Part shown: positions 11,686-15,986 of the stretch, in pieces
Layout: each line of letters starts with the position of its first letter
Numbering within the stretch: position 1 is the first letter of the stretch
NCBI RefSeq assembly: GCF_039655775.1
Contig: NZ_JBBYXJ010000001.1
Span: 1,697,501-1,761,500 of the forward strand
Source: Iodidimonas sp. SYSU 1G8
GTDB lineage: Bacteria; Pseudomonadota; Alphaproteobacteria; SMXS01
Direction: 5' to 3'
Length of the DNA: 64,000 nt
Notes under the pieces: model-generated
Databases searched by the model: none
Seen by the model: the letters and a program-made list of their open reading frames with translations, nothing else
What the model was told of the DNA's origin: nothing
Position numbers and translations under genes: made by a program

Positions 11686-13053
11686 ATGACGCCGCCGACC
11701 ACTGGACAACCCACCCTGCTGCGCACCATCGGGCCGCTCCAGCTGACCCTTTACGGGCTCGGCAGCATGCTCGGCGCCGGCATCTACGGCTTGATCGGCA
11801 AGGCGGCGGGGCAGTTGGGCAGCGCCATATGGGTGGCGTTCCTCGTCAGTATGATCGCCGCGCTGTTGACCGGTCTCTCCTATGCATCCATCGCGTCGCG
11901 ATATCCGCGCGCGGGCGGCGCCGCCTATGTCACGCAGCGCGCGTACCGGAAGCCGCTGCTGAGCTATCTGGTCGGCCTCGCGGTGGTCTGTTCGGGCCTG
12001 ACCTCCATCGCGACCCAGTCGAACGTGGTCGCCGAGAACCTCAAGCACCTCTTCGGCTGGGCAAGCCTGCCGACGAGTCTGCTGGCGCTTGGTTTCCTGC
12101 TGGTGATCGCCGGCATTCTGGTGCGCGGCATCCGCGAATCGCTCTGGTTCAACCTGATCTGTACCGGCGTCGAGGCGGCGGGACTGCTGCTTGTCATTGC
12201 TGTCGGCGTCGATCATTGGGGCAGCGTCAGCCTGCTGGAGCTCCCGTTCCCGGGCATGGGCAATGGCGCGCTCGCGTTGCTGATCATGCAGGGCGCGGTG
12301 CTGACCTTCTTCTCGTTCATCGGCTTCGAGGACATGCTGAACGTGTCCGAGGAGGTGAAGAACCCGCAGCGCAACATGCCCCTTGCGCTGATCTCGGCCA
12401 TGGTGCTGGCCACGGTGATCTACATGGCGGTGGCCGTCACGGCCGTCTCGGTCGTCCCGTGGCAGGACCTTGCCCAGGCCGCCGGACCGCTGACCCTCGT
12501 GATCGAACGCGCGGCGCCCTGGTTTCCGGCCGTCGGCTTTACGGTGATCACCATCTTCGCCGTCGCCAACACGGCGCTGATCAACTACCTGATGGCCTCG
12601 CGGCTGCTCTATGGCATGTCCTATCAGGGATTGATGCCGAAGGCGCTGGGCGCGGTTCATCGTACGCGTCGCACGCCGCACATGGCCATTGCCGTGCTGT
12701 TCGTGATCGTCGCCGCGCTGGCGCTGATCGGCAACATCCAGGAACTGGCGTCCGCCACCGTACTGCTGCTGCTGAGCGTGTTCGTCGTCGTCAACATGGC
12801 TCTGGTCGTCCTGAAATTGCGGAAGGGCGAGGCGCGCGGCAAGTTCGAGGTCCCGCTGGCGGTTCCGATCGCGGGGGCGCTCATCTGCCTGGCGCTGATC
12901 GTGGTGCGCGTGCAGCAAGGCGACATTCTCGCGACACTGATTTCCGGCGGACTGCTCGGCCTGATCGTGGTCCTGTATTACGCAACGGGCGCAGGGCGCA
13001 GCGACAGGCTGCAGGCATTCCTCGAAGAAGAGCGATCAGATCCGGCCGCGTGA
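11686..13053 (+). CDS. APC family amino acid permease
   Basis: 455 residues, about 12 membrane helices. The N-terminal YGLGSMLGAGIYGLIGKAAGQLG is the conserved APC helix 1 with its Gly-rich unwound segment. SRYPRAGGAAYVTQRAY and FFSFIGFEDMLNVSEEVKNPQRNMP follow in the usual places. Family members transport amino acids or polyamines into the cell; specificity cannot be read. The C-terminus is a short charged tail. Its last 18 bases overlap the end of the convergent nucleotidyltransferase gene. It may be co-transcribed with the MFS gene upstream. Confidence 0.9.
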   Translation: MTPPTTGQPTLLRTIGPLQLTLYGLGSMLGAGIYGLIGKAAGQLGSAIWVAFLVSMIAALLTGLSYASIASRYPRAGGAAYVTQRAYRKPLLSYLVGLAVVCSGLTSIATQSNVVAENLKHLFGWASLPTSLLALGFLLVIAGILVRGIRESLWFNLICTGVEAAGLLLVIAVGVDHWGSVSLLELPFPGMGNGALALLIMQGAVLTFFSFIGFEDMLNVSEEVKNPQRNMPLALISAMVLATVIYMAVAVTAVSVVPWQDLAQAAGPLTLVIERAAPWFPAVGFTVITIFAVANTALINYLMASRLLYGMSYQGLMPKALGAVHRTRRTPHMAIAVLFVIVAALALIGNIQELASATVLLLLSVFVVVNMALVVLKLRKGEARGKFEVPLAVPIAGALICLALIVVRVQQGDILATLISGGLLGLIVVLYYATGAGRSDRLQAFLEEERSDPAA

Positions 13054-14139
13054 CAGGCGCCGCTTCAGCGAAGCCCAGCCCTTGATCGCCGCATGCCGGG
13101 CCAGCAGGCCCGGCGGCATCTTCAGCCAGTGGGACCGGAGCAACAGCAGCCCGCGCGCCAGTGCCGCGCCCGTCGCCGCACGGTCCGGGTGGCTGGGGAC
13201 CAGCGCCGCCGGTACGACCAGATCCATGACCCGCCGCGCCAGCGGGCCGGGCCTGTGCGACAGGGTGTTCAGAAAGCCGTCCGACACGGACGTGCCGAAC
13301 AACCGCTGGGCAAAATCGATCGCATGGAATACAGGGCGGCCGGCGCCGTGCAGCTCCGCGCGCCGGGCAAGCGCTGGCCAGAACTCCGCATCCTGCTGCG
13401 CGAACTCGCTCACCAGCTCGTGAATGTCGAGCAACTCGCGCAGCCGTTCGGCCAGATCGCCGTCCTGGAACAGGTGGACGGCGGCATGCACGACCATATC
13501 GACCGGCAACGGCACAAGCGCGGCATAGCCGTGGACATCGACAGGCAGCGCATCCCGCAGCATCGCCCCGGCATCCGGACGAATCCGTCCGGTAAGGGGC
13601 AGGATGGTGTGGTGGACGTCCATGATGGTGGCGCGGTACTGGTGCTGGAGGGGCGGCAGCTCGTGCATCCATTCCCGGTAATAGCGCTGGTCGTACTCAT
13701 CCAGATCCAGCCCCAGCCAGCCAGCCTCGCCCAGCGCCCGCTCGACCGCGGCGAGGCGGTCACGCGGCACGAGGATGTCCACGTCGGACGAGACCCGGCC
13801 ACGGGCGACGTGCAGACCACGCAACGCATAGGCCGCGCCCTTGAGGAACAGGACCGGCGCGCCGACATGATGCAGCGCATGCATGACGAAGAACGCCTCG
13901 GCGCGCAGATGATCGTCCTGATAGGCGCACAGCCGCGTGACCGAGGCGAACTGCCGGGCGACCGCCGGCGGCAACCGCTCGCCGATCCCGGCATCCGCCG
14001 CGTACCGGGCCAGCTTGCCCAGCAGCGCCCGGCGGCGCGCTCGCTGCAGGACGCCGGTCCATTCCCGAGGCGTCAGCGCCGCCATCCGCGTGGGAGTCCG
14101 CAGGGTCTCGAGCAAAGGGTCAGGCGGCCTAGAGGCCAT
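13036..14139 (-). CDS. Nucleotidyltransferase family protein (NTP_transf_5 type), fourth gene of the HprK-related operon
   Basis: 367 residues. FLKGAAYALRGLH (about 98-110) and GRVSSDVDILVPRDR (about 114-128) form the nucleotidyltransferase core, with Asp119 and Asp121 as the likely metal ligands. VHHTILPL and VHAAVHLFQ give further His-containing helices typical of the uncharacterised NTP_transf_5 family, which is often found beside PqqD-like proteins and HprK-like kinases. It should transfer a nucleotidyl group to a protein, peptide or small molecule. Its start overlaps the end of the kinase gene by 11 bases, suggesting translational coupling. Its end overlaps the APC gene on the opposite strand. 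Confidence 0.82.
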   Translation of the reverse strand: MASRPPDPLLETLRTPTRMAALTPREWTGVLQRARRRALLGKLARYAADAGIGERLPPAVARQFASVTRLCAYQDDHLRAEAFFVMHALHHVGAPVLFLKGAAYALRGLHVARGRVSSDVDILVPRDRLAAVERALGEAGWLGLDLDEYDQRYYREWMHELPPLQHQYRATIMDVHHTILPLTGRIRPDAGAMLRDALPVDVHGYAALVPLPVDMVVHAAVHLFQDGDLAERLRELLDIHELVSEFAQQDAEFWPALARRAELHGAGRPVFHAIDFAQRLFGTSVSDGFLNTLSHRPGPLARRVMDLVVPAALVPSHPDRAATGAALARGLLLLRSHWLKMPPGLLARHAAIKGWASLKRRLSRGRI

Positions 14140-15037
14140 CGAGCAACCCTTCGATCAGGCCGACGCCCCCTGCGGTATCCGAGTAGCTGGCGGCAAGAAC
14201 CGGACGCTCGCCCGCGATGGCGGACAGGGCCTCGAAGCCCGCCTTGCCGATTTCCCGGTAATTCACCGAACAGGCGCTGAGGGCGATGAAGGCCGCCGCC
14301 TTGCCCATGGGCGACAGTCCGGCCTCGGCCTCCGGGTCGAAGTGGGGGAACACCACGGCGACGGGCGCGACCAGGTCTCCGGCCGCGTCGATATCCGCGC
14401 GGCGCGGCTGGACATAGGCCACCGTGCCTTTCGGCGTCTCCCGAAGCGGGGTCGAGAGCACCAGGTCCGGCGCCCAGGCGGCGACGACGTCGATCGATGC
14501 GTTCTTCAGTGAAATCGGCCTCGGATGGGCCGTGATGCGCAGGGTTTCCGGATCGAGCAGGCAGAATTCGTCCGAGACGTGGCGCCAGCCCCGCGCCACG
14601 AGCGCCGCGCACAGCGTACTCTTGCCCTGGCCGGACTGCCCGGGAATGATGATGGCGCGGCCTTCCCTGGCCACCACCGCGGCGTGCAGAATCAGATGGG
14701 TGAAGGTTCGCGTCGCGACGCACCAGTTGAACGCCTGCTCGAACATCAGGGCCGCCATGTGCTCGGGCAACGGCACATAGGGCGGCGGCGTGTCGATGAA
14801 GGCCATGGACTGCCGCCGGATGAACCGCCGCAGGCCGCCCGTGCCCGCGACGCGGATCGAAAAGTCCGGCACCGCGTCCGAAAGGATGTCGAAATGACCG
14901 TACAGGCCATGCAGCGACCGATGGAGGACGGAAAGCGGGCTGTGGACGCCGACGATGAAGGGCGGCACGTCAAGGCAGGCGCCGGCCGCCACCCGCCGCG
15001 AGAACGCCGCAAGCGCCATGCCGCCGATCCGGCTCAT
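14129..15037 (-). CDS. HprK-related kinase A
   Basis: 302 residues from the ATG at 15037, which overlaps the stop of the PqqD-like gene in an ATGA. The P-loop GQSGQGKST (133-141) lies in LHAAVVAREGRAIIIPGQSGQGKS, followed by SDEFCLLD (155-162), where Asp/Glu fit the phosphoryl-transfer site of HPr kinase. HPISLKN-like and VFPHFDPEAE segments complete the fold. The N-terminal 100 residues are not HprK-like. HPr kinase proper phosphorylates HPr Ser46 and sits with PTS genes; no PTS gene is present here. This branch is associated with a PqqD-like partner, so a peptide or protein substrate is more likely (inference). Confidence 0.85.
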   Translation of the reverse strand: MSRIGGMALAAFSRRVAAGACLDVPPFIVGVHSPLSVLHRSLHGLYGHFDILSDAVPDFSIRVAGTGGLRRFIRRQSMAFIDTPPPYVPLPEHMAALMFEQAFNWCVATRTFTHLILHAAVVAREGRAIIIPGQSGQGKSTLCAALVARGWRHVSDEFCLLDPETLRITAHPRPISLKNASIDVVAAWAPDLVLSTPLRETPKGTVAYVQPRRADIDAAGDLVAPVAVVFPHFDPEAEAGLSPMGKAAAFIALSACSVNYREIGKAGFEALSAIAGERPVLAASYSDTAGGVGLIEGLLDGL

Positions 15038-15324
15038 GACCGTCGCGCGATCAGGGCGAGCGCCTCGAAATTTCGCAGCGCCGTGCCGATGCGTCCGCCA
15101 AAGGCGCCGGCATCCGCATCGCCCAGGTCTTCGTGCACCGTGTCGGTCAGCGCCGCTTCGGTCAGCGGACTCGCGGCGATCAGGCGCAGGAGGTAGCTGG
15201 TGAAGAGATCGAGATAGTGGGTTTCGCCGGTGACCCGGTTGAACACCACGCATCCATCGTCCCAGTCGCGCCAGGTCAGGGCGTCACTGGCGGCGAGGCG
15301 AATGACGGCATCGGCCTCTGCCAT
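15034..15324 (-). CDS. PqqD-like peptide chaperone of the HprK-related system
   Basis: 96 residues from the ATG at 15324. WRDWDDGCVVFNRVTGETHYLDLFTSYLLRLI, followed by a helical SPLTEAALTDTVHEDLG and a final ALRNFEALALI, match the PqqD winged-helix fold: hydrophobic strand pair, V/I-F-N, then a long helix. PqqD-type proteins bind a precursor leader and present it to a modifying enzyme. Here the likely partner is the kinase, whose start overlaps its stop. The gene upstream, 17 bases away, encodes an exported Cys-containing protein that may be the client. Short length is normal for the family. Confidence 0.8.
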   Translation of the reverse strand: MAEADAVIRLAASDALTWRDWDDGCVVFNRVTGETHYLDLFTSYLLRLIAASPLTEAALTDTVHEDLGDADAGAFGGRIGTALRNFEALALIARRS

Positions 15325-15341
15325 TCCCGCTCTCGGCCAGC

Positions 15342-15857
15342 CTACTTGCAGACGGAAGGGCTGGTGTTGTTGTAGATGGAAACGTCGCGCGTGCGCTTGA
15401 TCGGCCCGCTGCAATAGGACGTCCAGCACGAGCCATTCGTGACCATCAGGTGGATCATGTCACCCGTTTCGACCGAATCGCCTGGCCCGTTCGGATAGCT
15501 TCGGCCCGCCCCGGACCCTGAAAAATCGTTCACGATCGATTCGATGTCGTGGCGGTCCTTGCCCTTCTTCTTTTCGGGAATACCCGTCAGCGACGTGACC
15601 GTTTCCCGGTTGCGTCGCTGCGTCGAGGTCGGATCCTTACTGAAATCACCGAACGTGCTATCGAGTTGGGATGTCGAGGGGCGCTTGAGCTTGCTGGCGC
15701 AACTGGACAGCGCCCAGGCAGTGCCGCTCTGCAGGGAAATGATCACCGGCACGGCGACGACACCGGTCTTGATGATCTTGCGCCGCAACTGGTTGGCCGC
15801 CTCGCGCGATTCAGCGCCGCTATCCTGACGGATCTCGTGCGTGTCCTGCTCAGACAT
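15342..15857 (-). CDS. Exported cysteine-containing protein, candidate substrate of the HprK-related system
   Basis: 171 residues from the ATG at 15857 with GAAAGAGG upstream; the frame extends to 15992 but that part has no good site. Residues 1-24 are hydrophilic and acidic, then RRKIIKTG (25-32) and a hydrophobic stretch to AWA (47-49) form a twin-arginine-like or Sec-like signal. The mature part has Lys/Ser-rich low-order sequence and a C-terminal region with Cys144, Cys149 and Cys170 plus Cys53. No family was recognised. It is the first gene after a near-consensus promoter and 17 bases before the PqqD-like gene, which fits a precursor role, though this is inferred. Confidence 0.7.
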   Translation of the reverse strand: MSEQDTHEIRQDSGAESREAANQLRRKIIKTGVVAVPVIISLQSGTAWALSSCASKLKRPSTSQLDSTFGDFSKDPTSTQRRNRETVTSLTGIPEKKKGKDRHDIESIVNDFSGSGAGRSYPNGPGDSVETGDMIHLMVTNGSCWTSYCSGPIKRTRDVSIYNNTSPSVCK

Positions 15858-15957
15858 GGCGTGTACCTCTTTCCCGCCCCCAAGGGCACCGCAGCGGCAT
15901 ATCGCCGGGTCTGCCGCGCGTGTGCCGCGGCGGATCGGAAACCCCACTGAATTTCGT

Positions 15958-15986
15958 ATTTTAGAAGAGGACCGCCCCGCGATCAA
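15958..15986 (-). promoter_or_regulatory. Sigma-70-like promoter of the HprK-related operon
   Basis: On the minus strand: TTGATC (15986-15981), 17 bases, TAAAAT (15963-15958). Both boxes and the spacing are near consensus. It lies between trmN6-like and the exported-peptide gene, and would give a leader of about 95 bases. Confidence 0.7.

Follow-up and report, generated by a model that had tools for sequence, protein, structure and literature searches.

A conserved four-gene operon of Pseudomonadota in which an HprK-related kinase and a PqqD-like protein probably modify a Tat-exported protein

The window, a DNA stretch of 64,000 nucleotides, carries on its minus strand an operon of four genes, encoding in order the exported precursor P0001 (171 aa; 15342..15857), the PqqD-like protein P0002 of RiPP recognition element type (96 aa; 15034..15324), the HprK-related kinase A P0003 (302 aa; 14129..15037) and the NTP_transf_5 nucleotidyltransferase-fold enzyme P0004 (367 aa; 13036..14139). 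The first two genes are separated by exactly 17 bases, and overlaps of 4 and 11 bases follow, the former joining the adjacent and co-oriented PqqD-like and kinase genes. This layout agrees in full with the initial annotation, whose gene identities were also borne out by family cut-offs and by a Tat-type signal on the exported protein. Its near-consensus promoter proved weaker than claimed: the candidate sigma-70-like site TTGATC-17-TAAAAT (15958..15986, minus strand) has 9/12 matches, and with two promoter-grade sites in 5.5 kb versus 0.8 ± 1.1 in shuffled sequence it is not significant on its own.

Scores of 57 bits for the PqqD-like protein against TIGR04353 (cut-off 35) and 275.9 bits for the kinase against TIGR04352 (HprK_rel_A; cut-off 200) place both in their families; a PDB sequence search with the PqqD-like protein gave nothing useful, and the kinase profile matched the HprK structures 1jb1, 2qmh and 1ko7. 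In the kinase alignment, the invariant His118 (14684..14686, minus strand) was aligned with what we take to be the catalytic histidine of HprK, and the invariant Asp156-Glu157 (14567..14572, minus strand) sits where HprK presumably has its Asp-Asp pair. The Walker A motif GQSGQGKST (residues 133-141; 14615..14641, minus strand) keeps G136, G138, K139 and T141 invariant in 31 sequences. Although this P-loop region with its His, Walker A and Asp motifs resembles HprK, P0003 reached 20.7 bits against the HprK equivalog TIGR00679, far under the cut-off of 240. On another contig, the genome carries a short HprK-like gene next to RapZ-like, EIIA-like and HPr-like genes, a cluster identified by reading and, for the HprK-like protein, also by profile match (9.5e-10). 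Because this separate HprK-like gene is present together with an HPr-like gene, the identification of P0003 as the HPr kinase was rejected. An earlier remark that PTS genes are lacking thus holds near the operon but not genome-wide.

P0004 scored 161.7 bits against PF14907, whose gathering score is 31.2. A PDB sequence search with it returned nothing useful, and its AlphaFold model (pLDDT 95) matched the folds of MenT1 (Z 14.4 over 178 residues) and ANT(2'') (Z 11.8); the glycan phosphotransferase FKRP was also among the matches, at a middling Z of 8, far below MenT1. The active-site D119-x-D121 in SDVDILV (13777..13785, minus strand) is intact, both aspartates being invariant in 48 sequences.

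The exported protein P0001 matched no family in Pfam or NCBIfam, and its AlphaFold model, built from a 10-row alignment, reached a pLDDT of 45, on which we base no fold. Its N-terminus bears the hallmarks of a Tat signal, namely a twin-arginine motif, a hydrophobic region and an A-x-A site (LRRKIIK...TAWA), and TatC is encoded in the genome. The signal core (RRKIIKTG...VPVIISLQSGTAWA, residues 25-49; 15711..15785, minus strand), which we propose as the leader bound by the PqqD-like protein, ends at Ala49, after which cleavage was predicted by eye. This signal appears unusually conserved. Across the family the twin arginines are kept in 98-99% of sequences and the h-region shows [TS] at 89% and [LIV] at 93%; within the genus, the h/c region is 92% identical with 15/17 positions invariant, versus 58% identity in the middle of the mature protein, and few parts of the mature protein reach the conservation of the hydrophobic core. 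The proposed substrates fall into two types, type I with S-S..C plus SCWxS and type II with C..SGxxSGNxS...SPGYW. The type I signature appears in P0001 as the C-terminal motif SCWTSYC (15411..15431, minus strand), an alternative candidate for a modification or disulfide site. The initial label of "peptide" fits these products loosely, since small proteins, tens to a few hundred residues long, make up most of the mature forms.

We collected 150 kinase loci, a few of which represent one genome present in two collections. The full set of four genes was found in the same order and on the same strand at 107 of them, with median spacings of +12, -4 and -4 bases, and this order and linkage is far beyond chance. 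Profile searches detected the exported partner at 134 of the 150 loci, a positive answer to the question whether an RR-type exported protein always lies beside the kinase and PqqD-like genes; a regular-expression detector of RR signals was too strict (71/150) and was replaced by the profiles. Many of the exceptions had a divergent RR protein in the same position, an unlinked copy or a contig end, and the notion of invariable adjacency to the kinase was corrected accordingly, as some genomes carry the exported protein unlinked.

Co-occurrence was then scored in 398 sampled Pseudomonadota genomes, 61 of which (about 15%) encode the kinase. With a signal-only profile at E <= 5e-5, the exported protein was detected in 51/61 kinase-positive versus 0/337 kinase-negative genomes, the latter count being subject to a limited profile sensitivity that could miss divergent substrates. 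The corresponding Fisher p of about 1e-54 is inflated by the shared ancestry of the genomes, and the genomes scored include some that had contributed to the construction of the profile (A4). Within the window's own order, the protein was present in 8/8 kinase-positive genomes and absent from 2/2 kinase-negative ones. Two kinase-negative genomes scored nearest to the threshold: in G548 an RR-signal protein stands alone and no kinase was detected in its vicinity, and G470 has a related locus with PqqD-like, kinase-like and NTP_transf_5-like genes below the kinase threshold. At split loci in four genomes (G406, G446, G496 and G631), the exported protein and the PqqD-like gene stand together, apart from the kinase and the nucleotidyltransferase, and G550 has an additional substrate-PqqD pair. 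In locus L100, the PqqD-like and kinase domains are fused into one protein. The established part of this picture is that the genes and their order are conserved, that they are strictly inherited together and that the catalytic motifs are intact. The genome-wide co-occurrence, the split loci and the fusion strongly support, at the level of sequence, the central idea of the initial annotation, namely that the exported protein is what the operon modifies and that the PqqD-like protein presents it.

Our best explanation, which we regard as probable, is that the operon serves to modify, in the cytoplasm, a protein destined for Tat export: the PqqD-like protein would bind the signal and the kinase would phosphorylate a serine. 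The conserved Tat signal would be recognized by the PqqD-like protein as a RiPP-type leader, and the precursor would be passed to the HprK-related kinase for phosphorylation, most likely on Ser51 or Ser52 just past the predicted cleavage site. The NTP_transf_5 enzyme may then extend this phosphate with a nucleotidyl or sugar group, by analogy with the lasso enzyme of pseudomycoidin. This is the weakest step, because deletion of lppN caused no change in the heterologous host of the related system of linear polyphosphorylated peptides (LPPs; PMC13381572). The modified protein would leave the cell through Tat and lose its leader to the housekeeping signal peptidase, so that a dedicated protease or transporter would be unneeded. 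Once mature, the protein, which often contains cysteine, would have its role on the cell surface, probably alongside exopolysaccharide in many relatives.

XrtA/PEP-CTERM (exosortase) exopolysaccharide genes adjoin 58/150 kinase loci, and an exosortase is encoded in the window's genome. Both observations fit a further proposal, in which phosphorylation is only the first step and the exported protein is nucleotidylated or phosphoglycosylated and linked to polysaccharide as a glycan-anchored or EPS-associated product. The hexoses that pseudomycoidin enzyme N places on a phosphate (PMC8498205) and the fold match to FKRP point the same way, yet that match lies far under MenT1, no EPS neighbours were found at the window operon or the Sphingomonas loci within the stretch examined, and nearness to EPS genes does not demonstrate attachment. 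We consider such a linkage less likely than not. It is an extension of the best explanation, not its opposite.

Within the proposed phosphorylation of the exported protein, Ser51-Ser52 (mature positions +2/+3; 15702..15707, minus strand) is the favoured site. Ser52 and Cys53 are invariant in the 10-sequence type I alignment, 96% of type I proteins carry a serine at +1 to +5, where 35% would be expected, and the LPP kinase targets core Ser3, near the leader junction (PMC13381572). A modified residue common to all substrates was sought across types I and II, and none was found. A doubtful alternative target is the SCWxS serine in the C-terminal part of the protein: the SCWTSYC region is 92% identical across the genus with C144 and S147 nearly invariant in the same alignment, and lasso kinases do act on a C-terminal serine (PMC8498205), but the motif is missing from the type II substrates served by the same kinase family and lies more than 20 residues upstream of the C-terminus in P0001, and the junction-proximal action of the LPP kinase also speaks against it. 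That the kinase and nucleotidyltransferase instead process a sugar or another small molecule destined for exopolysaccharide, with the exported protein a co-regulated neighbour, would suit the EPS neighbourhood and the small-molecule substrates of folds such as ANT(2''), but it is improbable given that substrate and kinase co-occur genome-wide even when unlinked, that the PqqD-like gene, whose type binds peptides, remains beside the substrate gene and forms a fusion with a kinase in L100, and that many loci have no EPS genes.

Modification of the exported protein is our preferred reading. In its broadest form, which we advance tentatively and with somewhat less than even confidence, the twin-arginine signal would also serve as a leader for a PqqD-type element to recognize, and the whole exported protein would receive a phospho- or phosphoglycosyl modification at the foremost serines ahead of its export by Tat. 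Such a system would be widespread in Pseudomonadota and would connect Tat secretion and RiPP-type tailoring with exosortase/exopolysaccharide biology. Should the leader indeed be the Tat signal, a secretion signal would here act as a RiPP recognition sequence, which would be unusual.

Comparison with known systems places the operon, in which proteins passing both TIGR04352 and TIGR04353 (PqqD_rel_X) are encoded side by side, within the HPr-rel-A system. The literature searched assigns no substrate or chemistry to that system, to which the Tat-signal precursor family is an addition; naming the exported protein as the probable substrate would give this enzyme set a target. The SynChlorMet cassette (ScmC/ScmD; TIGR04249/TIGR04248) likewise has, by model names, an HprK-related and PqqD-related pair, but at 32.6 bits the window kinase falls short of the cut-off (125).

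Phosphorylated lasso peptides such as paeninodin and pseudomycoidin also employ a PqqD-like B1, an HprK-like K and a nucleotidyltransferase N, and some of their clusters include a sulfotransferase (PMC8498205), as do 11 relatives of the locus here. They differ in that the proposed substrate of the window operon is much larger, P0001 lacks the YxxP leader motif of lasso precursors, and no lasso cyclase or B2 protease lies beside the operon, the flanking genes examined belonging to other families. In two relatives scanned, the asparagine-synthase-like neighbours scored under the cut-off for lasso cyclases and belong to TIGR03108, the XrtA amidotransferases.

The closest parallel is the LPPs of Bacillota (Popov 2026), a RiPP family with multiple phosphates on the core serine and with an RRE, an HprK-like kinase and an NTP transferase but no cyclase, described as restricted to that phylum (PMC13381572); the suggestion of a new product class was therefore too strong. 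The operon shares with LPP loci the grouping of an HprK-like kinase, an NTP transferase and a discrete RRE at a single locus that lacks a macrolactam cyclase, precursors with a conserved N-terminus and variable C-terminus, and a location, at many relatives, near polysaccharide genes. In contrast to LPPs, its host belongs to Pseudomonadota, its precursor has a Tat signal as putative leader and lacks the RRE-binding motif YxxPxVL, and neither a SipW-like signal peptidase nor an MsbA-like transporter was among the flanking genes examined. The enzyme trio without a cyclase is thus already known, and what differs here is the Tat signal as putative leader, the lack of a dedicated peptidase and transporter, and the exosortase neighbours at 58 of the 150 loci. 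If the leader is indeed the Tat signal, phosphate-based RiPP chemistry would reach from peptides of Bacillota to exported proteins of Proteobacteria.

The minus strand between 13036 and 15857 carries four closely packed genes, just as the initial annotation had described, while the near-consensus promoter assigned to them there is a match of only 9/12 and carries little weight. The PqqD-like product and the kinase scored above the cut-offs of the curated NCBIfam models TIGR04353 and TIGR04352, respectively, and the fourth product gave a strong Pfam match to PF14907 (NTP_transf_5); the exported product matched no family in Pfam or NCBIfam. The operon is flanked by genes for an amino acid permease, an MFS transporter, a methyltransferase and a polyprenyl synthetase. 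As noted before, no RiPP cyclase adjoins it, and neither a leader peptidase nor a dedicated exporter was found among the flanking genes.

The kinase exceeded its cut-off in 8/10 genomes of the window's order, in 11/385 genomes sampled from its class and in 61/398 sampled from its phylum, with bearers including Massilia, Duganella, Thiobacillus, Rubrivivax, Methylomonas, Sphingomonas and Alteromonas; one further occurrence came from a planctomycete MAG. Whether an RR-type exported protein always adjoins the kinase was checked in 150 kinase loci; the independent cases number at most that many, because some genomes occur in two collections. An iterated profile seeded with the window's protein found a homologue in 134/150 loci, and in most of the exceptions the slot holds a divergent RR-signal protein, the contig is truncated or a copy lies elsewhere. 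The exported protein is thus a constant partner of the kinase. NTP_transf_5 was present in 139 and the PqqD-like gene in 129 of these loci, and all four genes stood in a single shared order in 107. A related cassette (L221, 3300-7405) encodes an RR-signal Cys-rich protein with PqqD-like, HprK-like and NTP_transf_5-like products, in a genome whose kinase falls short of the threshold applied for TIGR04352. That model probably does not capture the full breadth of the system.

The 398 genomes sampled from the phylum were also searched with a 42-position profile that spans the signal and the first residues of the mature protein. At E <= 5e-5, a threshold picked after the list had been viewed, it matched 51/61 kinase-positive and 0/337 kinase-negative genomes. 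With the limit set by the search itself (1e-3) the counts were 55/61 versus 10/337 (p ~5e-50), and such p-values overstate independence because the profile was partly built from these genomes and the genomes are related. Neither the scarcity of matches in kinase-negative genomes nor the matching of unlinked copies is built into the profile. Within the window's order, the exported protein occurred in 8/8 kinase-positive and 0/2 kinase-negative genomes.

Four genomes (G406, G446, G496 and G631) keep the exported protein and PqqD-like gene together, apart from the kinase and nucleotidyltransferase, and in another (G550) a second substrate-PqqD pair exists in addition to a complete locus. Elsewhere a natural fusion joins a PqqD-like domain to the HprK-related kinase domain beside NTP_transf_5 (L100, 6045-7259), a locus with no recognised exported partner, and genome G009 has two extra tandem exported-protein copies, both with acidic Asp-rich tails (L208, 6762-8266). 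Recognition of the exported protein by the PqqD-like protein, with the enzymes acting in trans, would be expected to leave such a pattern. In G009 the NTP_transf_5 gene is split into several open frames (L094, 7520-8602), by mutation or assembly error, and the substrate, PqqD-like and kinase genes of this genome appear intact.

The RR pair is conserved in 98-99% of exported proteins and is followed in the h-region by Ser/Thr in 89% and, at the next position, Leu/Ile/Val in 93%. Identity within the genus reached 92% in both the h/c region and the SCWTSYC region, compared with 58% in the mature middle. Such conservation of the signal relative to the mature middle of the same protein is unexpected for an ordinary signal and would fit a leader read by its sequence. 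Two classes were distinguished. Type I proteins carry serines and a cysteine shortly downstream of the predicted cleavage site, together with a C-terminal [ST]C[WFY]xS motif; type II proteins show C..SGxxSGNxS and, further on, SPGYW. In type I, a Ser lies <=5 residues from the predicted cleavage site in 96% of proteins versus 35% expected from composition, in a count of related sequences with cleavage sites set by regular expression; Ser52 and Cys53 are invariant in a ten-sequence alignment. Type II proteins (L154 3998-4660, L137 4136-4774, L180 3826-4668 and others) have in common the region C..SGxxSGNxS...SPGYWKN and a conserved domain at the C-terminus, and those scanned fall into no family of Pfam or NCBIfam. 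A recurrent neighbour of type II loci is a gene for a trypsin-like (HtrA-type) protease (about 30 loci, for example L071 3713-4501).

The kinase retains the invariant His118, Walker A and Asp156-Glu157, and HprK crystal structures are the first matches of its profile. A role as the HPr kinase itself is ruled out by a separate HprK-like gene that lies on the genome's other contig (L209, 3869-5912), close to RapZ-like, EIIA-like and HPr-like genes, so the earlier remark that PTS genes are lacking does not hold for the genome as a whole. The structure model of NTP_transf_5 (pLDDT 95) has a nucleotidyltransferase fold with invariant Asp119 and Asp121 and is closest to MenT1 (Z 14.4, rmsd 2.8, 178 aligned), followed by ANT(2'') (Z 11.8) and FKRP (Z 8), a predicted resemblance of fold that does not show function.

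The gene linkage was observed directly, and every chemical step of the mechanism is inferred. In the most likely mechanism the PqqD-like protein would bind the Tat signal, the kinase would phosphorylate Ser51/Ser52, NTP_transf_5 would extend the phosphate, Tat would export the product and signal peptidase would remove the leader. Kinase-dependent phosphorylation of the exported protein is the likely function of the operon; the placing of the phosphate at Ser51/Ser52 is an even call, and its extension by the nucleotidyltransferase is suggested tentatively.

At least 58/150 loci adjoin XrtA/PEP-CTERM exopolysaccharide genes; the window's operon lies outside any such cluster, and its genome encodes an exosortase. 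In 11 loci (L115, 6455-8149, and ten more) the kinase adjoins a TPR-sulfotransferase (PF13469), an arrangement that recalls the sulfotransferases of paeninodin-type lasso clusters. Lasso kinases target a C-terminal Ser, and the nucleotidyltransferase of pseudomycoidin attaches hexoses to the phosphate (PMC8498205). The linear polyphosphorylated peptides (LPPs) of Bacillota combine an RRE, an HprK-like kinase, an NTP transferase, a SipW-like leader peptidase and an MsbA-like transporter with no cyclase, their loci are located in capsule clusters, and their kinase places several phosphates on core Ser3 (Popov et al. 2026, PMC13381572). The present system probably works like the LPP and lasso-kinase systems, but it lacks two tested LPP features, the YxxP leader motif and, among the flanking genes, those for the peptidase and transporter, and is therefore not classed with the LPPs. 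It belongs to HPr-rel-A, whose families TIGR04352 and TIGR04353 were not mentioned by name in the literature searched.
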